Positions 4,486 to 16,093 of a stretch of 31,992 nucleotides of DNA are shown here, piece by piece. The notes beneath the pieces are model-generated. The model saw only the letters and a program-made list of their open reading frames with translations. It was not told the DNA's origin and ran no database searches. This DNA comes from a virus. The stretch spans positions 1-31,992 of the IMG/VR virus record IMGVR_UViG_3300010354_000342. One strand, given 5' to 3'. Both the position numbers and the translations under genes were made by a program. Within the stretch, counting starts at the first letter, position 1; each line of letters opens with the position of its first letter.

Positions 4486-4659
4486 ATGGAAATCAAAGAA
4501 CAAATAGAAGCTTTAAAAGCTAAATTAACGGGTAATCTGTTTGAAGATGGTGAGGTAATGCAGCAGATTTATGAGTTAAAAAAACAACTTAATCCCGAAA
4601 TTGAAAACAATCCTGATGCAGATGATGATGAAGATGGGTGTTTATTTTGTGGTAGTTAA
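4486..4659 (+). CDS. Small acidic protein with C-terminal CxxC
   Basis: 57 residues from the ATG at 4486; an in-frame TTG at 4462 lies inside the previous gene and is unlikely. A helical first half is followed by an Asp/Glu stretch and the ending CLFCGS, whose CxxC could bind metal. It is the last ordinary operon gene before the attC-like repeats, and its stop lies 5 bases before the first right-hand core. No matching left cassette boundary was found, so it is probably resident rather than cassette-borne. Confidence 0.55.
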   Translation: MEIKEQIEALKAKLTGNLFEDGEVMQQIYELKKQLNPEIENNPDADDDEDGCLFCGS

Positions 4660-4664
4660 TTGAT

Positions 4665-4797
4665 GCTAACGGTTTCGCAGCTTGGCGAGGTGCGGGACTT
4701 TTACCCGAAAAGCCACAAACGAAGTGCAAATTTTAAATAAAAACGAATATGTCAATAGAAAAACAAAACCCCGTATCTTGCCAAACTGCTGTTATGG
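4665..4797 (+). repeat. attC-like site 1 (imperfect inverted repeat)
   Basis: Inverse core GCTAACG at 4665-4671 and core GTTATGG at 4791-4797 can pair through TAAC/GTTA. Inside, GCAGCTTGGC (4677-4686) pairs with GCCAAACTGC (4780-4789) with one C:A mismatch. The unpaired spacer is longer on the 5' arm than on the 3' arm, as in integron attC sites. The long loop holds a smaller CGGG/CCCG hairpin and the upstream ATG of the next ORF. This is the least certain of the complete-looking sites. Confidence 0.5.
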
Positions 4798-5078
4798 GCA
4801 GTTTAGTTAAGTCTTTAAATTGGATTGATAGCCCCGTAAAAAGGTCTGGAGATATTTATAAAGTAATGTCAAGGGCTGATGTTCCGATGCCTCATACTGT
4901 AGGTAATGCTTGTATCGAAATAACAGAACAAACATACCCGCACAAATATTATGAAGCTAAACTTTGGAGCTTTAATCGAGGCACTTATATGGTCGAAGGT
5001 AAGTCTGTTGATGATGTAAAAAATAATGCTTTTAAATGGTGGTCTGATTTTGTCTGTGGGTTTTTAAATTGCCCATAA
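4749..5078 (+). CDS. Cassette-borne hypothetical protein
   Basis: 109 residues from the ATG at 4749, or 94 from the ATG at 4794, which lies inside the core GTTATGGGC and would be the natural start if this is a gene cassette. The 4749 start follows an A-rich leader and cannot be excluded; its first 15 codons would be translated attC sequence. The protein has several Trp/Tyr residues and ends WWSDFVCGFLNCP, the last codons running into the next inverse core. No family recognised. The flanking 9-base cores GTTATGGGC (4791) and GCCCATAAC (5071) are exact inverse complements, as expected at the two ends of one cassette. Confidence 0.65.
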   Translation: MSIEKQNPVSCQTAVMGSLVKSLNWIDSPVKRSGDIYKVMSRADVPMPHTVGNACIEITEQTYPHKYYEAKLWSFNRGTYMVEGKSVDDVKNNAFKWWSDFVCGFLNCP

Positions 5079-5168
5079 CGTTTTGCGTGTTTATGTCAGG
5101 CGGGCATAGCACGAACTTAATTATTAACCGCAAGCTGTCCGCCCGCTTGCATAAACACGCTGTTAGGC
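5071..5168 (+). repeat. attC-like site 2 (long stem-loop)
   Basis: Inverse core region GCCCATAAC (5071-5079) and canonical core GTTAGGC (5162-5168, fits GTTRRRY). The arm 5085-5105 pairs with 5141-5160: an 11-base perfect stem GCGTGTTTATG/CATAAACACGC, then an extra T at 5096, one mismatch, and a GC-rich inner stem. The spacer is TTTT on one side and a single T on the other. Extrahelical base, asymmetric spacer and cores are hallmarks of folded attC recombination sites. It is visibly GC-richer than its surroundings. Confidence 0.75.
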
Positions 5169-5179
5169 GCAGTTAAATT

Positions 5180-5320
5180 ATGAACAAGAAAATATTAAAA
5201 CGAATTGAAGAAATCTTCTCAGAGAAGTTACAAGCTAAAACAGGTTGGGGTAGAAACGAAATAATGCAAGCATACCGTGAAGCTGTCAATGAGGCTTTAA
5301 TGGAGTTGTTGGACGCTTAA
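5180..5320 (+). CDS. Small cassette-borne protein (46 aa)
   Basis: ATG at 5180, 12 bases after the core GTTAGGC, ending TAA just before the inverse core GCGCCTAAC (5323). A 46-residue, largely helical protein with a central TGWGRNEIM turn. No family recognised. It fills the space between two exactly complementary cores (GTTAGGCGC at 5162, GCGCCTAAC at 5323), which is the arrangement of a minimal gene cassette. Confidence 0.6.
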   Translation: MNKKILKRIEEIFSEKLQAKTGWGRNEIMQAYREAVNEALMELLDA

Positions 5321-5322
5321 TT

Positions 5323-5350
5323 GCGCCTAACGGATGACAAATAAACGCAG
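5323..5350 (+). repeat. attC-like site 3, partial
   Basis: GCGCCTAAC (5323-5331) contains a perfect RYYYAAC inverse core and is the exact inverse complement of GTTAGGCGC at 5162. The remaining stretch, ending ATAAACGCA at 5341-5349, has no nearby partner or GTTRRRY core, but can pair with TGCGTTTAT at 5590-5598. It looks like the left arm of a site that was truncated or split by the next ORF. Confidence 0.5.
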
Positions 5351-5358
5351 TAAATGAT

Positions 5359-5565
5359 ATGAAAGAAGAAATTTTAAGTATAGCATCAGACCTTAGAGAA
5401 GGTAGCATGACCACCAATGAAGCAAAGGAACATTTATTGCGTTTATTTGGTGTTATAGGTTCGGTTTGCGATTGTGTAATACCAAAGCCTAAAGACCCTT
5501 ATCATGACTTAGATAGGAAGATTTGCCGTGATTGTAACGGAAACATTGAGCAAACTGACCTATAA
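5359..5565 (+). CDS. Small Cys-containing protein between attC-like arms
   Basis: A 68-residue protein with a helical N-terminus (EEILSIASDLREGSMTTNEAKEHLLRLFGV) and a C-terminal half containing CDC (38-40 region) and CRDC, which could form a small zinc site. The N-terminal pattern resembles segments in other small Bacteroidota phage proteins, but no function is known. The stop overlaps the next inverted repeat. It may be the cargo of a fourth cassette-like unit. Confidence 0.6.
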   Translation: MKEEILSIASDLREGSMTTNEAKEHLLRLFGVIGSVCDCVIPKPKDPYHDLDRKICRDCNGNIEQTDL

Positions 5566-5610
5566 CACAAAGATAAACGTCTGCGAAGTTGCGTTTATCA
5601 ACTGTTAAGA
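5561..5610 (+). repeat. attC-like site 4 (short)
   Basis: TAACA (5563-5567) pairs with TGTTA (5603-5607) and GATAAACG (5572-5579) with CGTTTATC (5592-5599), separated by unpaired spacers. The right core GTTAAGA fits GTTRRRY at six of seven positions and is followed by GCAGTT, as at the cores of sites 1 and 2. At about 50 bases it is at the short end for attC. Positions 5611-5674 hold nothing but an AT-rich leader for thyX. Confidence 0.55.
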
Positions 5611-5674
5611 GCAGTTTAGATAGATTTAAATATGCTTATTTATACAAAAAACGACTAAATAAATTAAAAACATT

Positions 5675-6316
5675 ATGAAAATTGAATTATTAGATACATT
5701 TGGAAACGATGCTATGGTAGCATTAGCTGCACGAGTTAGTTATAATAAAAGTTCAGATAATTACACCGACGAACAAAACAACAAGCTATTAAGCTATTTG
5801 GCAAAGCATAACCATTGGAGTCCATTCAGTCATCCGAAATTAACATTTCGTTTACAAATTCCTGTCTATGTCGAAAGGCAGTTAATCAAAACACAGGCAG
5901 GTGTTGAGTATAATTCGATAAGCGGTCGCTACGTTGATTTTTCAGACACATACACGCTTATAAACGAGTGGCGTACACAAAGCAAAGATAGTAAACAAGG
6001 GAGCGCAGAACCTTTGGACATTTATGGTCAAGAAGCTTGTAATATTATAGAATACCAGGTTAAAGAATTTTGTCAAGATGCTTATAAGAAGTTAATTGAT
6101 TTAGGAGTAAGCAAAGAACAGGCACGTACAATACTACCTTTGAATCTTAACACAACGATGATTTGGACGGGATCACTTTACGCATTCATAAGACTATGTA
6201 AGCAAAGATTGAAATCAGATGCACAAGCAGAAACACGTCAAGTTGTAGAAGAAATGTTAAAGCAAGTAAAAGATAAAGGAGTATTTAACCAATCATTAAA
6301 AGTGTACGAGTTATGA
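5675..6316 (+). CDS. thyX: Flavin-dependent thymidylate synthase ThyX
   Basis: 213 residues, normal for ThyX, which makes dTMP from dUMP using FAD, NADPH and methylenetetrahydrofolate. Visible family features: early AARVSY, HWSPFSH (47-53), the signature region RQLIKTQAGVEYNSISGRY (68-86), QARTILPLNLNTTM (149-162) and AQAETR (183-188) with the dUMP-site Arg188. The usual RHRxxSxNExSxRY is altered: the RHR triplet reads KTQ and the conserved Glu after Asn80 is Ser, while S83, R85 and Y86 are kept. It follows the attC-like block after an AT-rich leader and overlaps the next gene by ATGA. Confidence 0.9.
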   Translation: MKIELLDTFGNDAMVALAARVSYNKSSDNYTDEQNNKLLSYLAKHNHWSPFSHPKLTFRLQIPVYVERQLIKTQAGVEYNSISGRYVDFSDTYTLINEWRTQSKDSKQGSAEPLDIYGQEACNIIEYQVKEFCQDAYKKLIDLGVSKEQARTILPLNLNTTMIWTGSLYAFIRLCKQRLKSDAQAETRQVVEEMLKQVKDKGVFNQSLKVYEL

Positions 6317-6859: not shown

Positions 6860-7026
6860 TGAACAAAGCAAAATTAATTAAGAATAGATTAACAGTAGTT
6901 TGGCAAGGCGTTACTAAAATAGCGCCTTTGTCGAATGAAGAACTATTCTGCAGTAGATGGAAACAACGAGAAAACAAAAAGATTATAAACCATAAAAAAC
7001 ATGTAAACAATGAATGTGGAGCTTAA
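6859..7026 (+). CDS. Small basic protein (55 aa)
   Basis: Its ATG overlaps the TGA of the SSB-like gene and it ends TAA at 7024-7026, 17 bases inside the next gene. The product is Lys/Arg/Asn-rich with the central part IAPLSNEELFCSRWKQRENK. The coding region contains a hairpin at 6905-6928 without a T run. It fills the only gap in this part of the operon. Function unknown. Confidence 0.55.
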   Translation: MNKAKLIKNRLTVVWQGVTKIAPLSNEELFCSRWKQRENKKIINHKKHVNNECGA

Positions 7027-8929: not shown

Positions 8930-10109
8930 AGCATTCGGTAATGATAGCAGATACTTTATTGTTACAGGTGGCCGCGGTAGTGGTAAGTCATATTCTATTA
9001 ATTTGCTTTTACTTTTACTTACATATGAAACGAACCATGTTATATTATTTACAAGGTACACTCTTACTTCTGCTCACGTCTCTATTATACCTGAATTTAT
9101 TGATAAGATTGATTTATTAGATAAACATTCAGACTTTCACATTACCAAGGATGAAATAATAAACCTAAGAACAGGAAGTAAGATTTTATTCAAAGGAATC
9201 AAAACAAGTTCAGGAACACAAACAGCAAACTTAAAATCATTGGCTGGTGTTACTACATGGGTGTTAGATGAAGCTGAAGAGCTAACCGATGAAGATACCT
9301 TTGATAAGATCGATTATTCTATTCGACATAAAGACATTCAAAACAGAGTTATATTAATTCTTAACCCTGCAACAAAAGAACATTTTATTTATCAAAAGTT
9401 TTTTGAGAGTAGAGGAGTTGAAGCTGGAGTCAATACAATTAAAGGTGATACAACGTACATACATACAACTTATCAGGATAACATAGACAACCTTTCTGAA
9501 AGTTTCTTAAATCAAATAAAAACGATAAAAGAACGACGTCCTGATAAATATAAACACACAATACTTGGGGGATGGTTAGATAAAGCCGAAGGTGTTATAT
9601 TTACTAATTGGAATATAGGCAAGTTTAATAATGATAATGGTTCGGTGTTTGGTCAGGATTACGGATTCAGTACAGACCCATCTACATTAATTGAAACGTC
9701 AATAGACAAAACAAGAAAGATAATTTATGTTAGATTGCATATTTATCAAACAGGGTTGACTACATCACAATTAGCGCAATTAAATAAACAATTTGCTGGT
9801 AATAATTTAATCGTAGCAGATAACGCAGAGCCAAGGCTAATAACAGAATTAAAAGCGCATGGTTTAAATATAGTGCCGACAATCAAGGGAGCTGACTCAG
9901 TAAAATATGGGATAAGTTTATTACAAGACTACGACCTTATTATTGACGAAAATTCCGTAGATTTGATAAAAGAATTAAACAACTACTGTTGGCTTGAAAA
10001 GAAATCAGAGACACCGATTGATAAGTTCAATCATGGATTAGATGCTTTACGATATGCAGTTAGTTACCAATTAGCAAACCCAAATAGAGGAAAATATGGA
10101 ATCAGGTAG
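8904..10109 (+). CDS. terL: Terminase large subunit (PBSX-like)
   Basis: 401 residues. The N-terminal ATPase has Walker A GGRGSGKS (22-29) and Walker B WVLDEAEEL (119-127). The C-terminal RNase H-like nuclease has Asp252 (FGQDYGF), Asp306 (IVADNAEP) and Asp380 (NHGLDALRY) as probable metal ligands. It packages DNA into proheads and cuts the concatemer. The start must be TTG at 8904: an in-frame stop lies at 8898 and no ATG or GTG occurs before the Walker A region. The overlap with terS suggests coupled translation. Confidence 0.93.
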   Translation: MVVLNPKYKAFGNDSRYFIVTGGRGSGKSYSINLLLLLLTYETNHVILFTRYTLTSAHVSIIPEFIDKIDLLDKHSDFHITKDEIINLRTGSKILFKGIKTSSGTQTANLKSLAGVTTWVLDEAEELTDEDTFDKIDYSIRHKDIQNRVILILNPATKEHFIYQKFFESRGVEAGVNTIKGDTTYIHTTYQDNIDNLSESFLNQIKTIKERRPDKYKHTILGGWLDKAEGVIFTNWNIGKFNNDNGSVFGQDYGFSTDPSTLIETSIDKTRKIIYVRLHIYQTGLTTSQLAQLNKQFAGNNLIVADNAEPRLITELKAHGLNIVPTIKGADSVKYGISLLQDYDLIIDENSVDLIKELNNYCWLEKKSETPIDKFNHGLDALRYAVSYQLANPNRGKYGIR

Positions 10110-10368
10110 TAGATTATTAAGAGAAAAAGACACAACATTTAAATGGGATGTTTTTGAAGGTGATATGTGTCAATACAAAACTTTAGTTAAAAACATTGAC
10201 GAATTAATTATTCATTTAAGTATTAAAAAAGAAAAAGGATTTACACATGTTGATAGCGAAATGTTAGGGGTAAAATTTCTAACTAAAAACGAAGTAATAT
10301 TAGAAGAAATAGAACATTTGAATAATAGAATTGAACAATTAAAAGAAGAATTAGATGGAATTAGATAA
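10096..10368 (+). CDS. Hypothetical protein with C-terminal coiled coil
   Basis: A 90-residue protein overlapping the terL end by 14 bases. The C-terminal 25 residues (LEEIEHLNNRIEQLKEELDG) form a clear coiled coil. The first 60 residues are mixed and unrecognised. It opens a four-gene block between terminase and tail genes; role unknown. Confidence 0.65.
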   Translation: MESGSRLLREKDTTFKWDVFEGDMCQYKTLVKNIDELIIHLSIKKEKGFTHVDSEMLGVKFLTKNEVILEEIEHLNNRIEQLKEELDGIR

Positions 10369-10552
10369 ACCAAAGTCATTAAGACAAATGATTAACGAAA
10401 GCGCAGTAAAAGTAGCTGAGGCTTATAAGAATGAACATGGTAACGATTGGAAATTTCCATGTGTGGAGTCAATAGATAACGAAGTAGCTAAAGCTGAAGC
10501 AACGTTGAAGTATTGGAAGGGTGTTAAGGCGAAAGTATTACAAGTGAGATAA
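10355..10552 (+). CDS. Small hypothetical protein (65 aa)
   Basis: It overlaps the preceding gene by 14 bases. Charged and helical with a short central stretch HGNDWKFPCVES. No motif recognised. Support is tight packing and normal composition. Confidence 0.6.
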   Translation: MELDKPKSLRQMINESAVKVAEAYKNEHGNDWKFPCVESIDNEVAKAEATLKYWKGVKAKVLQVR

Positions 10553-10559
10553 CAAAACG

Positions 10560-10871
10560 ATGAGAGATTATGCAGCGTATGTAATTACAATTTTATTTAT
10601 TATTAGTTTTAGTATTAACTTATGGTTTTTGCTACTAACTCCTGTATTTGTAATATTATTAATTTTATTATTAAAAAAAATGCAAGTAAAAATAACATTT
10701 AAACATTACGGTGCTTATTGTGGTGATGGGTGTTGCCAAAGTGATTTTATAAAAACATCCGTAAACGGTGAAGAACTTGATTTTGGAAATACAGACACTG
10801 AAACAATAGTTCAAGGCATACTTGAAAAGTTAGGGTATAATGTTACAATAGAAAGCACTTATGAAGATTGA
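10560..10871 (+). CDS. Membrane protein with Cys-rich C-terminal domain
   Basis: 103 residues. Residues 4-41 are hydrophobic, enough for two close membrane segments (YVITILFIISFSINLWFLLL and PVFVILLILLL). Next comes a basic stretch, then HYGAYCGDGCC and a mixed C-terminal domain. No known family. A membrane protein between terminase and tail genes is unexpected; roles in host interaction or superinfection exclusion are only speculation. Confidence 0.65.
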   Translation: MRDYAAYVITILFIISFSINLWFLLLTPVFVILLILLLKKMQVKITFKHYGAYCGDGCCQSDFIKTSVNGEELDFGNTDTETIVQGILEKLGYNVTIESTYED

Positions 10872-11079
10872 AAATAAAATGACAGCAGTAGAATGGTTAA
10901 TTGAATTATTGGCAAAAGAAAAAATTGCAATTCCTGACTATATAATTAAAAAAGCCAAAGAAATGGAAAAGCAACAGCTAAATGATGCGTATAATGCTGA
11001 CAGACCTAACTTAACATGTTATGAAGAGAATACAGCATTCAAGGAATACTACAATGAAACATTTAACAATGAAGATTGA
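10861..11079 (+). CDS. Small conserved-type phage protein (72 aa)
   Basis: The N-terminal half MTAVEWLIELLAKEKIAIP..IIKKAKEMEKQQLNDAY resembles a small protein that I associate with many Bacteroidota phages; its role is unknown. A possible internal start is MTAVEW at residue 7. It overlaps the preceding gene by 11 bases and the following chaperone gene by 11. Confidence 0.7.
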   Translation: MKIENKMTAVEWLIELLAKEKIAIPDYIIKKAKEMEKQQLNDAYNADRPNLTCYEENTAFKEYYNETFNNED

Positions 11080-11746
11080 AATTGAAATACCTTCTAACCT
11101 ATCCGAGATCAGTTTAGATAGGTATCAAAAGTACATGCTAACTTTGAACAACTCGGACGATAAAGAGTTTGTGTTTCAAAAAATGATTGAAATCTTTTGC
11201 GGCTTAGAACTCAAAGAAGTTGTTAAAATGAAAGCGTCAACTGTTATCGAATTGGTGCAACACTTCAATAAAATCTTTAACGAGAAAACAGACTTCAAAC
11301 ATAGGTTTAAATTGAATGGTGTAGAGTTTGGATTTATTCCTGATCTTGAAGAAATAAGTTGGGGTGAGTATATCGACATAGAGGCTAACATAGGAGATTT
11401 TCAAAACATACATAAAGCGCTTGCAGTAATGTACAGACCGATTGTAAAGGACGTTAAGGGAAAATATGAAATAGAACCTTACAGAGGTGATTTAAGTTAT
11501 TCAGAGGTCTTAAAATACGCACCTTTGGACGTTGTGCTACCCGCTTCGGTTTTTTTTTGGACTTTAGGAATAGAATTAATAAGCAGTACGCTGCACTCTT
11601 TGGAGACAATGAAGAACAAAACCCGTATAGCGAAAATGTTCAATTCTCAAAACAATGGGGATGGTATAGCTCAATCTATCATGTTGCTCAAGGAGACATT
11701 AGAAGATTTGACGAAGTTACAGCGTTGGGACTTCATCAATGTTTAA
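11069..11746 (+). CDS. Tail assembly chaperone candidate (zero frame, gpG-like)
   Basis: 225 residues from the ATG at 11069, next to the stop of the previous gene; in-frame ATGs at 11021 and 11054 lie inside that gene. An N-terminal beta segment (MKIEIEIPSNLSEISL), helices, then SWGEYIDIEANIGDFQNIHKAL. Codons 161-163 (GTT TTT TTT) sit in a run of nine T, and a second ORF in the -1 frame begins there. This is the arrangement of siphophage gpG/gpGT chaperones, which help wind the tail around the tape measure. The zero frame continues 62 residues beyond the slip site. Family membership is inferred from this architecture and location. Confidence 0.65.
   Translation: MKIEIEIPSNLSEISLDRYQKYMLTLNNSDDKEFVFQKMIEIFCGLELKEVVKMKASTVIELVQHFNKIFNEKTDFKHRFKLNGVEFGFIPDLEEISWGEYIDIEANIGDFQNIHKALAVMYRPIVKDVKGKYEIEPYRGDLSYSEVLKYAPLDVVLPASVFFWTLGIELISSTLHSLETMKNKTRIAKMFNSQNNGDGIAQSIMLLKETLEDLTKLQRWDFINV
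11551..11557 (+). promoter_or_regulatory. -1 programmed frameshift site T TTT TTT
   Basis: The T run 11550-11558 is read in the zero frame as GTT TTT TTT TGG. It contains the heptamer T TTT TTT (X XXY YYZ) at 11551-11557. After a -1 slip, reading resumes with TTG at 11557 and continues open to 11823, giving a fusion of about 251 residues. No downstream stimulatory hairpin or pseudoknot was worked out. Confidence 0.65.
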
Positions 11747-11823
11747 CTTTCTTAACGTTCGAACAACAAAAATCAAAGATTGAAGTTAATCAATTAAAGA
11801 AGTCTCATGAAAAACTATTATAA
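11557..11823 (+). CDS. Tail assembly chaperone -1 frame extension (T-part)
   Basis: 88 residues in the -1 frame, probably made only as the C-terminal part of the frameshift product; its own initiator would be a TTG inside the T run. KQWGWYSSIYHVAQGDIRRFDEV and LHQCLTFLTFEQQK resemble the C-terminal parts of phage tail chaperones (GWy..i..lA.gDi...). It overlaps the zero frame by 190 bases and overlaps the next gene's start by 17. Confidence 0.65.
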   Translation: MDFRNRINKQYAALFGDNEEQNPYSENVQFSKQWGWYSSIYHVAQGDIRRFDEVTALGLHQCLTFLTFEQQKSKIEVNQLKKSHEKLL

Positions 11824-12265
11824 TTTATCAACTTTATTACACGATAGCATACTTGCTGACCCTTTAGTGAATCGAGTAACTAAGGGAAGTTTGGATAAAA
11901 TCACGAATGCAAAGCAAGACATGTACCCATTGTGTCACATTATATTCAACGATGTAGCGTTTAGAGGCAATACAACGGTGTATAACATATCATTAGTTAT
12001 GATGTCAATAGTAGACATAAGCAAAGACGATGTAACGGATATATTTAAGGGCAATGACAATGAAGATGACGTTCTAAACACAACGTTAAGCATATTGAAC
12101 AGGATATTTGAACGAGTAAGAAGAGGGGATATTTACGATTTAGGTTACGAAGTTTTAGATGATACGGCAAGTTGTGAGCCTTTTGTGGACCGATTTACCG
12201 ATGCTGTTGCTGGTTGGACCATGACCTTTGACATATTAGCACCAAACGAAATGACTATATGTTAA
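11807..12265 (+). CDS. Tail terminator/completion candidate
   Basis: 152 residues. Features include ADPLVNRVTKGSLDKITNAKQDMYPLCHIIF and the end EPFVDRFTDAVAGWTMTFDILAPNEMTIC, with regular beta strands between. I recognise this as a recurrent Bacteroidota phage protein in tail modules, and size and location fit a tail terminator, but the role is inferred. It starts 17 bases inside the chaperone extension and overlaps the next gene by 7. Confidence 0.55.
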   Translation: MKNYYNLSTLLHDSILADPLVNRVTKGSLDKITNAKQDMYPLCHIIFNDVAFRGNTTVYNISLVMMSIVDISKDDVTDIFKGNDNEDDVLNTTLSILNRIFERVRRGDIYDLGYEVLDDTASCEPFVDRFTDAVAGWTMTFDILAPNEMTIC

Positions 12266-12837
12266 GTGATTTAAGGGAATCAGGCTTACAGGATGCTTTA
12301 GATAAGTTTAAAACTTATGTAATTAAACAAGCTCGCACCAATTTAACGAAGGGACGTGCGCCTTTTGGATCACATAACAACACAAGAAAGTTATACAACT
12401 CATTAAAAGGTCAAGCGAAGGTATATGCAAAAGGGTATTCGTTAAGCTTTGAGATGGAGGAGTATGGAAACTATCAGGATAAAGGGGTAAAAGGTAAACG
12501 TTCAAGTGCAAAAGCCCCTAACTCACCGTATAAGTTTGGAAGTGGCAAAGGTAAGAAGGGAGGATTGACCGAAGGAATACAAAGATGGGTTAAAGCACGT
12601 AAATTTCAGTTTAGACAACGTGACCCCGAAACAAAGAAGTCAACAGGTAAATTCTTATCGTATGAACAAACAGCGTGGATAATTACAAAATCAATTTATG
12701 CTAAAGGGTTACGTCCAACTTTATTTTTCACTAAGCCATTTGAACAAGCGTACAAACGTTTACCACAGGAATTAGTCAACGACTTAAAAATAGATTTAGA
12801 GAAAATATTTAACTACTCAATTAAACAACCGAAATGA
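12259..12837 (+). CDS. Neck/head-tail joining protein candidate
   Basis: 192 residues, strongly basic, with RAPFGSHNNTRKLYNSLKGQ, a Gly/Lys-rich loop (FGSGKGKKGGLTEGIQRWV) and GLRPTLFFTKPF near the end. The pattern of Arg-Pro-X-X-F-F ending and N-terminal helix is reminiscent of HK97 gp10-like joining proteins. Confidence in the exact role is low. Overlaps both neighbours by 4-7 bases. Confidence 0.55.
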   Translation: MLSDLRESGLQDALDKFKTYVIKQARTNLTKGRAPFGSHNNTRKLYNSLKGQAKVYAKGYSLSFEMEEYGNYQDKGVKGKRSSAKAPNSPYKFGSGKGKKGGLTEGIQRWVKARKFQFRQRDPETKKSTGKFLSYEQTAWIITKSIYAKGLRPTLFFTKPFEQAYKRLPQELVNDLKIDLEKIFNYSIKQPK

Positions 12838-13856
12838 TAAGAGCAAGGTCACCGTATATTATTACAATTAACGAAACAAGCCAAGTTAGTACACGAATAG
12901 AATTATTTATAAGTGCTACAACGTTTAGTGCTACGCCACAATATAACTTAAGTAAAGCAATTCCTGCATCAAACGCTCCTGCTACATATTACGACATTGC
13001 ACCTTACATACGTGAATACTTTGACCATTCAATATATTCAAACATTACAACGTTAACAAGTTCTTATGGTAGTGTTCAAAAGGTAAATGTAAGAGTAAAG
13101 AGATACAAGACCGTTGGATTAACTGAGTCATTGATTGATAGTACAGACTACATTGCAACGGATGGTTATACAGAATTTGCAAATGGTGTGAATTATAGCG
13201 GTGGCAATTACTTGTTAGACCAAAAAACTTATTATTATCATAGTGGAAGTAATGCTGGATTTATATTGGTTTACGCTGCAGCAAACGATAAGATTAGATG
13301 GACTAATCAAACAGATGCTATTGTTTATTTAAGTTCATCTTTATCTTTAGGTTGGTATTACGTACCACGTTGCTATAATTCAGAATTTACAAAAGAATAT
13401 ACAGTTGAGGTTTTAAATAGTTCAAGCGTAATGCAAGCTACATGGACTTTTAAGCCTGTTGAGGAATGTTTATACACACCCGTAAAGGTTGACTTCATAA
13501 ATAAATACGGAGCGTTTCAAAGAGAGTTTTTCTTTAAAGCGTCAACTGATAATATCGAGGTGACTAACAAAGATTACAACTTAATGCAACCGTACAATTA
13601 TAGCTTAACAGGTGGGCAAAGAACTACGTACAATCAAAACGGAACGCAAACTATCAAGGTCAATAGTGGATGGGTTGAAGAGGATTTTAAAGACAACTTA
13701 AAGCAATTAATGTTAAGTGAAAAGGTGTTAGTTGATGAGAAACCTGCTATACTTAAAACTAAATCAATTGAATTAAACAAGTCTATTAATACTAAACAAA
13801 TAAATTATAGTTTAGAGTTTGAATTTGCGTATGACTTAGTAAACAATATAGTATAA
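12834..13856 (+). CDS. Tail structural protein (distal tail/baseplate region)
   Basis: 340 residues, beta-rich, starting RARSPYIITINETSQVSTRIELFI and with YYDIAPYIREYFDHSIYSN. It resembles a protein I associate with Bacteroidota phage tails, where it precedes a large baseplate-like protein, as here. No enzymatic motif. The shared start/stop bases with the next gene suggest coordinated stoichiometry. Confidence 0.6.
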   Translation: MIRARSPYIITINETSQVSTRIELFISATTFSATPQYNLSKAIPASNAPATYYDIAPYIREYFDHSIYSNITTLTSSYGSVQKVNVRVKRYKTVGLTESLIDSTDYIATDGYTEFANGVNYSGGNYLLDQKTYYYHSGSNAGFILVYAAANDKIRWTNQTDAIVYLSSSLSLGWYYVPRCYNSEFTKEYTVEVLNSSSVMQATWTFKPVEECLYTPVKVDFINKYGAFQREFFFKASTDNIEVTNKDYNLMQPYNYSLTGGQRTTYNQNGTQTIKVNSGWVEEDFKDNLKQLMLSEKVLVDEKPAILKTKSIELNKSINTKQINYSLEFEFAYDLVNNIV

Positions 13857-16093
13857 TGAGAAAGGTAGATATATATATTGAGGTTACAACTGATAACTAT
13901 GAGAAAATAGAGTTGTTTAATGATGAAGAGATACAAATAAATAGTTCAATTCAAAACATTCAAGATTTAGCAAAGGTATATACTGACTTTACTCAGTCAT
14001 TCACTATTCCTGCATCACCACATAACAACAGATTGTTTAATCATTTTTATCAAACAGACGTAGATGTAGATGCAAATAATAACCCTAACATAAGAAGAAA
14101 CGCATTTATCGAGATAGGCACGATTCCATTTCGTAGTGGGAAAATATCAATCGAAAGTTCAAACGTAGTAAAAGGACGTGTAGAGAGCTATTCTGTTACG
14201 TTTTACGGCGATTTAACGAGCTTAAAGGATAAGTTTGGTGATAAGACCTTAAAGGATTTAGATTTACGTTCATATGGGATGAGTTACAGCGGGACAGGTG
14301 TAAAGGCACGTTTATTAAATGCGAGTAGTCAGGATATAAAGTTCCCTTTAATCACATCAAAAAGGCATTGGACATATGGTTTAGGAACGAGTACATGCAT
14401 AGATACAACTGCTGGAGCGATTGTTTACAATGAATTGTTCCCTGCGTTAAAAGTGAAGCGTATTTTTGAAGCAATACAAAACGATTTCGGAGTATCATTT
14501 AATTCAAATTTTTTTAATCAATCATTGTTTACTGAGTTATTTTTATGGTTAAAAAATTCAAAAGACTTTTTAGCCTATAGTAATACTGAAAATTTAACTT
14601 TTAATAGTGTAACAGGAACTAATAATATACTACAAATACCACAATATGCGGAAGTTACGCGAACTCAAAATTTAAAAGTTTCAGCATATTTTACAAGTGC
14701 AACAGTTGGAATTAGGATTTTTATTGACGCAATATTAGACGGTAAACTCATAAAAACAACTGAAATAACAACGTCTGGATATGTGAGTGTTTATTTTAAC
14801 GCTGTATTATTTACAGGATTCAAATTGGAATTAAAAGCAAGAGCATCAACAGCAGGAACAGCAACCATAATATTTGCTTTTAATTATCAATATTATCAAA
14901 ATACATGGAATGGAGGTTTTGAAGTTTCGCCATATATAACAAACACAGCAAGTAGTGGAGCGGTTACTTTTACAAGCCCTTATGTTGACCCTTCGATTTA
15001 CGCACCTAATATAAAGATTAGTGACTTTGTAAGTGGTATATTTAAAATGTTTAATCTAACATGTTACGCTACTTCTGTAGACAACTTCCAGGTTGAGCCT
15101 TTAGATGATTGGTATACTAAAGGAGCAGTAATAGACATAACTAAATATGTTGACACGGATGAGATAACAATCGAACGCCACAAACTTTACAAAGAAATAT
15201 CATTTAATTACGAAAAGTCAGAAAGTTATTTAAACGAAAGATATTTTAACGAAACTACAAACGCAACGAGAGAATTTGGAGATGTTAAAGAATCATTTGC
15301 AAATTACGATGGAGATGAATACAAGGTTGAAGTACCTTTTGAAAATATATACTTTACTAAAGAAGATACAAACAACATTGACGAGCCACCGAGAGCATAT
15401 TTATTAAATGAAGATACTGCAACTGAAAACTACGATAATAAACCTATTTTACTTTACATAGATACTTATCAGACAACTTCATTTTATTTTAACGATGGGT
15501 CAGCTACTAATTTAATAACAGCTTACAGACCATTGTGCAATCAGATAACATACAACAATGCGGTTTATTCTAATCACTTTTCAACTGAGCCAAGTGCTTT
15601 TAATGGTGTGACAATTAACAATAGTTTGTACTCACAATATTACGGAAGCTATTTACAAAATCTATTTAACCCTAAAAACAGAATAACCAACGTTAAAGCG
15701 TTATTCCCTATTTCATTACTTACTTCTTTAAAGCTAAATGATAGGTTAATAATTAGAGATAAACGTTATATCATAAATGAAATGAAGGTTAACCTAACTA
15801 CAGGAGATGTAGATTTAGCGTTGATAAATGATTTTAGACAAATTGCAAACGTTAATATTCCTGTACAACCTGCTACACAAAGCACAGTGCAAGTTCCATT
15901 TATTCCTCAAGGCGAACAAGTTTTTGAATATCAAACTGTACATCCAACTTTAGGGTTAATAACGCAAACAATAACAACTGACATTGATGTTTTAGCAATC
16001 ATTACTATACCTGCAAACACAACAGGAAACTTAGTTGAATGGCCAATAACAAGAGACGGAGAATCTTATTTAACAATTTACCAAGATGCTTAA
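13856..16093 (+). CDS. Large tail/baseplate hub-like protein
   Basis: 745 residues. The N-terminus (KVDIYIEVTTDNYEKIELF..., SIQNIQDLAKVYTDFTQSFTIPASPHNNRLFNHF) matches a recurrent Bacteroidota phage tail protein whose DFTQSFTIP segment is typical. The middle is beta-rich with jelly-roll-like strands, and the C-terminal 100 residues are Thr/Pro/Gln-rich. Location before the tape measure and size fit a hub or baseplate component. A tail-associated hydrolase is not apparent. Confidence 0.6.
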   Translation: MRKVDIYIEVTTDNYEKIELFNDEEIQINSSIQNIQDLAKVYTDFTQSFTIPASPHNNRLFNHFYQTDVDVDANNNPNIRRNAFIEIGTIPFRSGKISIESSNVVKGRVESYSVTFYGDLTSLKDKFGDKTLKDLDLRSYGMSYSGTGVKARLLNASSQDIKFPLITSKRHWTYGLGTSTCIDTTAGAIVYNELFPALKVKRIFEAIQNDFGVSFNSNFFNQSLFTELFLWLKNSKDFLAYSNTENLTFNSVTGTNNILQIPQYAEVTRTQNLKVSAYFTSATVGIRIFIDAILDGKLIKTTEITTSGYVSVYFNAVLFTGFKLELKARASTAGTATIIFAFNYQYYQNTWNGGFEVSPYITNTASSGAVTFTSPYVDPSIYAPNIKISDFVSGIFKMFNLTCYATSVDNFQVEPLDDWYTKGAVIDITKYVDTDEITIERHKLYKEISFNYEKSESYLNERYFNETTNATREFGDVKESFANYDGDEYKVEVPFENIYFTKEDTNNIDEPPRAYLLNEDTATENYDNKPILLYIDTYQTTSFYFNDGSATNLITAYRPLCNQITYNNAVYSNHFSTEPSAFNGVTINNSLYSQYYGSYLQNLFNPKNRITNVKALFPISLLTSLKLNDRLIIRDKRYIINEMKVNLTTGDVDLALINDFRQIANVNIPVQPATQSTVQVPFIPQGEQVFEYQTVHPTLGLITQTITTDIDVLAIITIPANTTGNLVEWPITRDGESYLTIYQDA

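Follow-up and report, generated by a model that had tools for sequence, protein, structure and literature searches.

How does an array of small ORFs, bounded by what look like integron recombination sites, come to lie in the early region of a phage genome with no integrase beside it? This question was raised by the virus record IMGVR_UViG_3300010354_000342, examined over its whole length of 31,992 bases (hereafter, the window). The record codes for thyX, an Erf-like annealing protein, a terminase and a portal protein, and the closest relative of its terminase was that of Nonlabens phage P12024L (56% identity), so the host is likely a member of the Flavobacteriia. The array occupies positions 4664–5610 of this tailed-phage contig, between a small phage gene (4489–4659) and thyX (5675). 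Rfam and tRNA scans of the window returned no matches, nor did searches of the array DNA against cultured phages or of the three cassette products against Pfam. An initial annotation had proposed an integron-cassette-like array without an integrase, and this was supported by anatomy, statistics and comparative breaks. With a probability of roughly 0.87, we consider the locus a phage-borne CALIN (a cassette array with attC sites but no integrase), located among the early genes of a flavophage-like genome; its cassettes are swapped at G|TT, and some of its attC sites would supply a translation start. The unit ends, the hairpins and the breaks at G|TT in relatives were all observed directly.

The array parses into four attC sites and three cassettes, in the order attC_a (R' at 4791), cassette A, attC_A (R' at 5162), cassette B, attC_B (R' at 5452), cassette C and attC_C (R' at 5604). 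Every cassette closes on itself through complementary ends, followed by a hairpin. The features, with their flanking genes, are as follows:

4489–4659, + strand: small phage gene flanking the array on the left; in the empty relatives L003, L004 and L013, thyX follows within a few bases of its stop codon
4664–4797, + strand: attC_a; R'' TGCTAAC (4664–4670), arms GCAGCTTGGCGAGG / TCTTGCCAAACTGC, R' GTTATGG (4791–4797)
4749–5078, + strand: fused ORF; MSIEKQNPVSCQTA contributed by attC_a and 95 codons by cassette A
4791–5161, + strand: cassette A; ends GTTATGGGC / GCCCATAAC
5073–5168, + strand: attC_A; bottom-strand fold −21.5 kcal/mol (z −3.4), extra base on the L'' arm, R' at 5162
5093–5176, + strand: short ORF within attC_A; stop TAA at 5174–5176, 3 nt ahead of the ATG (5180) of the cassette B ORF
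5162–5451, + strand: cassette B; ends GTTAGGCGC / GCGCCTAAC; ORF 5180–5320 (46 aa)
5325–5458, + strand: attC_B; arms 5338–5356 / 5431–5449 (19 nt, 95%), z −3.6
5359–5565, + strand: fused ORF; 31 codons from attC_B and 37 codons in cassette C
5452–5603, + strand: cassette C; ends GTTATAGGT / ACCTATAAC
5560–5610, + strand: attC_C, a short site; R'' CTATAAC, R' GTTAAGA (5604–5610), z −2.0
5675–6316, + strand: thyX (Thy1), flanking the array on the right; the window is again collinear with relative L002 from 5617

On re-check, all coordinates initially given for the ORFs and for the three GTTAnnnGCAGTT cores (4791, 5162, 5604) were correct, and the two reported 9-mer pairs were exact (GTTATGGGC at 4791 with GCCCATAAC at 5071; GTTAGGCGC at 5162 with GCGCCTAAC at 5323). 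A third pair, GTTATAGGT at 5452 with ACCTATAAC at 5558, had been overlooked. The three annotated ORFs are real, but 5359–5565 is not the single unit it was taken for, as its start lies within attC_B and it runs across the R' box at 5452. Likewise, hairpins do separate the cassettes as described; the complementary 9-mers are instead the cassette ends.

The locus holds several features by which CALINs are recognised, among them two or more attC sites that carry R''/R' boxes of the form RYYYAAC / GTTRRRY, in one orientation and within a few kb (here four, at 4664, 5073, 5325 and 5560). Complementary R'/R'' ends were found on each cassette as the three 9-mer pairs, and imperfect inverted repeats that fold into hairpins were found in attC_A, attC_B and attC_C (z scores of −3.4, −3.6 and −2.0, respectively), with an extra-helical base on the L'' arm of attC_A. 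attC_a has 10-bp arms, yet its whole hairpin was no more stable than shuffled sequence (z 0.1) owing to its long loop; it is taken as an attC on account of its arms, its boxes and the fact that it recurs elsewhere.

Such an arrangement is rarely reached by chance. Within 600 nt, three complementary GTT...AAC 9-mer pairs occurred in 4600–5700 against a shuffle mean of 0.083 (1 of 1000 shuffles reached three), and only five such pairs occurred in the whole 32-kb window. When a hairpin was demanded after every unit together with head-to-tail linkage, the window contained a chain of three linked units; none of 300 dinucleotide shuffles reached three and one reached two. The same blind detector, which works on exact 7-mers with a simple stem score and picks the array strand by ORF length, recovered class 1 attCs (aadB, aadA2, cmlA) on plasmids as well as IntI-adjacent arrays of Bacteroidota genomes. 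Repeats arising by chance, targets of group II introns and plain terminators were each weighed as explanations and rejected.

We further compared the locus with that of related phages. The nearest relative (L002) was 87% identical on both flanks, as far as window position 4673, at the left R'' box, and from 5617 onward, just past the last R' box. Between these flanks it carried a different, unrelated 1.15-kb array with complementary ends of its own (GTTAGGTGCA...TGCACCTAAC). The first unit of that array (L002:3786–3900) has a tRNA-like look (GGTTCGAATCC...CCCCCACAAC), although ARAGORN called no tRNA there. In four relatives (L003, L004, L009, L013) the two flanking genes nearly abut; the empty relatives were only ~75% identical around the array site, so the ancestral empty site is not readable to the base. 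attC_a recurred in ~20 viral contigs, unrelated ones included, and identity stopped at G|TT in R', beyond which the cassettes differed. The breaks at G|TT that the initial annotation had predicted among relatives were thus found, both in the sequence beyond the conserved attC_a and in the comparison of L002 with the window. Some viral contigs (L105, a 38-kb contig with a terminase; L095; L094) bore larger arrays than the window, with up to ~10 attC sites.

The locus might alternatively hold ordinary phage morons lying between terminator- or MITE-like repeats that resemble attC and exchanged by homologous recombination. Small swappable ORFs abound in phage early regions, and relatives L005–L012 have other small genes at the same locus that lack attC features. 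Our home-made covariance model (R1), built on the loop-trimmed arms of IntI-adjacent and class 1 attCs, did not match the array, but it also missed the larger viral arrays. We consider this explanation very improbable, as it does not account for the exact complementary unit ends in a linked chain, for divergence that follows a conserved attC and sets in precisely at G|TT, or for the same architecture in many unrelated contigs. The cassette reading is therefore preferred, and under it cassettes would enter and leave the array at G|TT in R', presumably through a host tyrosine recombinase of integron type that acts in trans on the single strand in its folded form.

In the usual view, integron cassettes need a platform promoter and a start codon of their own. 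Two of the four attCs in the window, attC_a and attC_B, hold a start in frame with the GTT of the R' box that follows (an internal ATG at 4749 in attC_a; a loop ATG at 5359 in attC_B, in frame with GTT at 5452), so that translation of cassettes A and C probably begins in the attC and yields fusions. The fused ORF of cassette A has a further in-frame ATG at the junction (GTTATG), which makes the attC start of this cassette a candidate start. For cassette B, the short ORF of attC_A, ending 3 nt before the next ATG, probably allows termination and reinitiation. Judging from the reading frames, an attC of this kind could give translation initiation to any cassette inserted behind it.

All distinct viral members of the attC_a family that we found, including the window and one virus-like MAG contig, had an ATG exactly 42 nt before GTT. 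Frame 0, which contains the GTT, stayed open for 47–210 codons into the cassette, and the other two frames closed early. As the cassettes behind the family differ, a shared gene cannot explain this open frame. Other attC types in the same arrays, attC_B included, likewise held an in-frame start, with 17–31 codons. In a strand-resolved blind count, 23/49 viral cassettes continued an ORF begun in the attC before them, compared to 2/50 IntI-adjacent cassettes, 2/52 XerA-type cassettes and 0/6 cassettes on class 1 plasmids (4/108 in total); these are counts per cassette and not independent events, with a few contigs giving several rows and related contigs partly de-duplicated. The viral contigs had been retrieved through one attC family and the comparison sets came from other taxa; with the family used to fetch the contigs removed, the difference persisted (11/37 viral vs 4/108 bacterial or plasmid cassettes, p = 5e−5). 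Many fused cassettes lacked an ATG of their own, though GTG or TTG starts are possible.

It is also conceivable that these ATGs arose by chance, with L' arms happening to be open in one frame and the true starts lying inside the cassettes. An ATG does lie at the junction or close to it in cassette A and some viral cassettes, and bacterial sister sites, whose corresponding strand is antisense to the genes, also carry an ATG at −42. However, long fused ORFs had no ATG within 90 nt after R' (139 and 153 codons in L105, 116 in L083 and 82 in L001), frame 0 was preferred by 19 attC starts compared to 4 and 0 for the other frames, and fusion was confined to 4/108 cassettes in the bacterial arrays. 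In addition, six viral half-site loci (L099, L100, L107, L109, L113, L115) lacked the R''-L'' half and still retained a start peptide ending PASCQTAV, the R' box and a cassette, as if the half-site were worth keeping or used as a landing site. In two of these (L109, L113) the ATG overlaps the stop codon of the upstream gene. Taken together, these observations make chance starts unlikely, and we favour attC-supplied initiation; were the attC ATG used in this way, N-terminal peptides would begin MSIEKQNPVSCQTAV.

The viral sites also differed from bacterial ones in their polarity. On the ORF strand, 49/60 viral attCs read AACG...TGTT, compared to AACA/C...CGTT in 46/60 IntI-adjacent sites and AACA...CGTT in 46/50 XerA-type sites, and the attC-like sites of the cultured Polaribacter phage P12002L followed the viral pattern. 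The polarity of extra-helical bases was less clear-cut, as most viral and XerA-type sites had arms of equal length; where the arms differed, the extra base usually fell on the left in viral and IntI-adjacent sites and on the right in XerA-type sites. For bacterial sister sites of attC_a, the genes lay on the opposite strand. A free, circular cassette carries its ORF and its attC in a fixed relation to each other, and this, together with the opposite polarity, suggests that the phage cassettes are not simply host cassettes.

These observations bear on whether the arrays are fragments of host chromosomal integrons, passively acquired and devoid of phage-specific adaptation. Sister attCs do occur in Bacteroidota genomes, once on a contig with an integron-integrase-like recombinase. 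The opposite strand of their ORFs and the polarity contrast both argue against passive acquisition, as does the distribution of the start-codon attC, which occurred once in the genome collection, on a virus-like contig, compared to ~20 viral contigs; a first pattern scan of genomes with a 26-mer had given no match. We regard passive acquisition as improbable. The single genome-collection occurrence (L085 / L185–L186, a Bacteroidetes MAG contig) is accompanied by genes for endolysin and tail fibre as well as a XerD-like recombinase, and for this reason the contig is probably a provirus or virus-like element. A broader proposal, to which we would give slightly less than even odds, is that Bacteroidota phages own a separate cassette pool, marked by opposite polarity and start-codon attCs, in which in-frame insertion after G|TT would create an instant fusion and a host recombinase would drive exon-like shuffling.

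Which enzyme might act on these sites was sought in both viral and bacterial genomes. In agreement with the initial annotation, no IntI (TIGR02249) was detected in the window; the record, which may be a fragment, thus lacks the intI that a complete integron holds in the same element. None was detected in 24 attC-bearing viral records (11 with a terminase match), and no canonical IntI scored above the cut-off in the five genomes first matched by the attC pattern or in eight more with sister sites. In comparison, 8/9 genomes with phage-like sites encoded a XerA-type recombinase (E below 1e−35), and in genome G448 a sister site lay in an array on the same contig as such a recombinase, ~2–3 kb upstream of it. 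Given the absence of IntI from the viral records and this occurrence and linkage of XerA-type recombinases, a host IntI or a XerA-type recombinase is the candidate enzyme.

Flavobacteriales genomes (L190:8927–9970 and 10066–14842; L200–L211, L214–L216) also contained a tyrosine recombinase together with an attC array. The L190-type recombinase scored 208 bits with NF040815 and 201 bits with TIGR02249, both below cut-off, and ~40 IntI profile positions within 177–238 were missing. Its array lies directly downstream on the same strand, with units downstream in 10/12 orthologs and upstream in none. For a second subfamily (~42% identical; L214, L216), the array was on the opposite strand, beside the 5' end. 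These arrays are possibly of integron type with a non-canonical integrase; a limited literature search found no Flavobacterium integron with such a recombinase, which does not show novelty.

Clusters of this kind, which the initial annotation had thought rarely described in phages, were already published in 2023, when 17 CALINs were reported in phages, including a Polaribacter phage, with attCs active with IntI1 (Qi et al. 2023, PMC9892861). Those CALINs, found in virulent phages such as Polaribacter phage P12002L, resemble the present array in combining attCs and small cassettes without intI, a flavophage included, in the polarity of the P12002L sites and in having methyltransferase genes among their cassettes. 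Cassettes in the related phage arrays analysed here included a Dam-type methyltransferase (PF05869, 4.7e−13), whose ORF was fused and had no ATG of its own near the junction. The main text of that study nowhere mentions start codons, translation or fused cassettes, and our analysis goes beyond it in the one-locus turnover of cassettes between close relatives, the start codons in attCs and the polarity contrast.

Two known arrangements are comparable. In class 1 integrons, ORF-11 of attI1 and a short attC ORF provide translation signals for the next cassette from within the recombination site (Hanau-Bercot; Jacquier 2009; reviewed in PMC8876359). The arrangement in attC_A is closely similar, in that its short ORF stops 3 nt ahead of the cassette B start; ORF-11 acts by termination and reinitiation from attI, whereas attC_a and attC_B read in frame through R' to give a fused protein. 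The fused gcuF1-blaOXA-28 cassettes (PMC3375312, reviewed in PMC8876359) similarly have an upstream coding start that reads through into the next cassette. That was a single clinical event in which expression was harmed, in contrast to the viral fusion, which recurs in one attC family with many different cassettes. The integrase-less phage array is thus of a known kind, and the start-codon attCs and inverted polarity look new, subject to limits of ascertainment.

If correct, a start-supplying recombination site would explain how promoterless, startless cassettes can be used in phages that lack an integron, and cassette insertion would become protein fusion. Phages could then achieve fast turnover of small, possibly anti-defence, genes by means of a host enzyme. 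Finally, a second copy of the right arm of attC_a (CCTTGCCAAACTACTGTTA) was found in the window at 6890–6908 on the − strand, with 2 mismatches and 0 expected by chance, and is a possible attC remnant.
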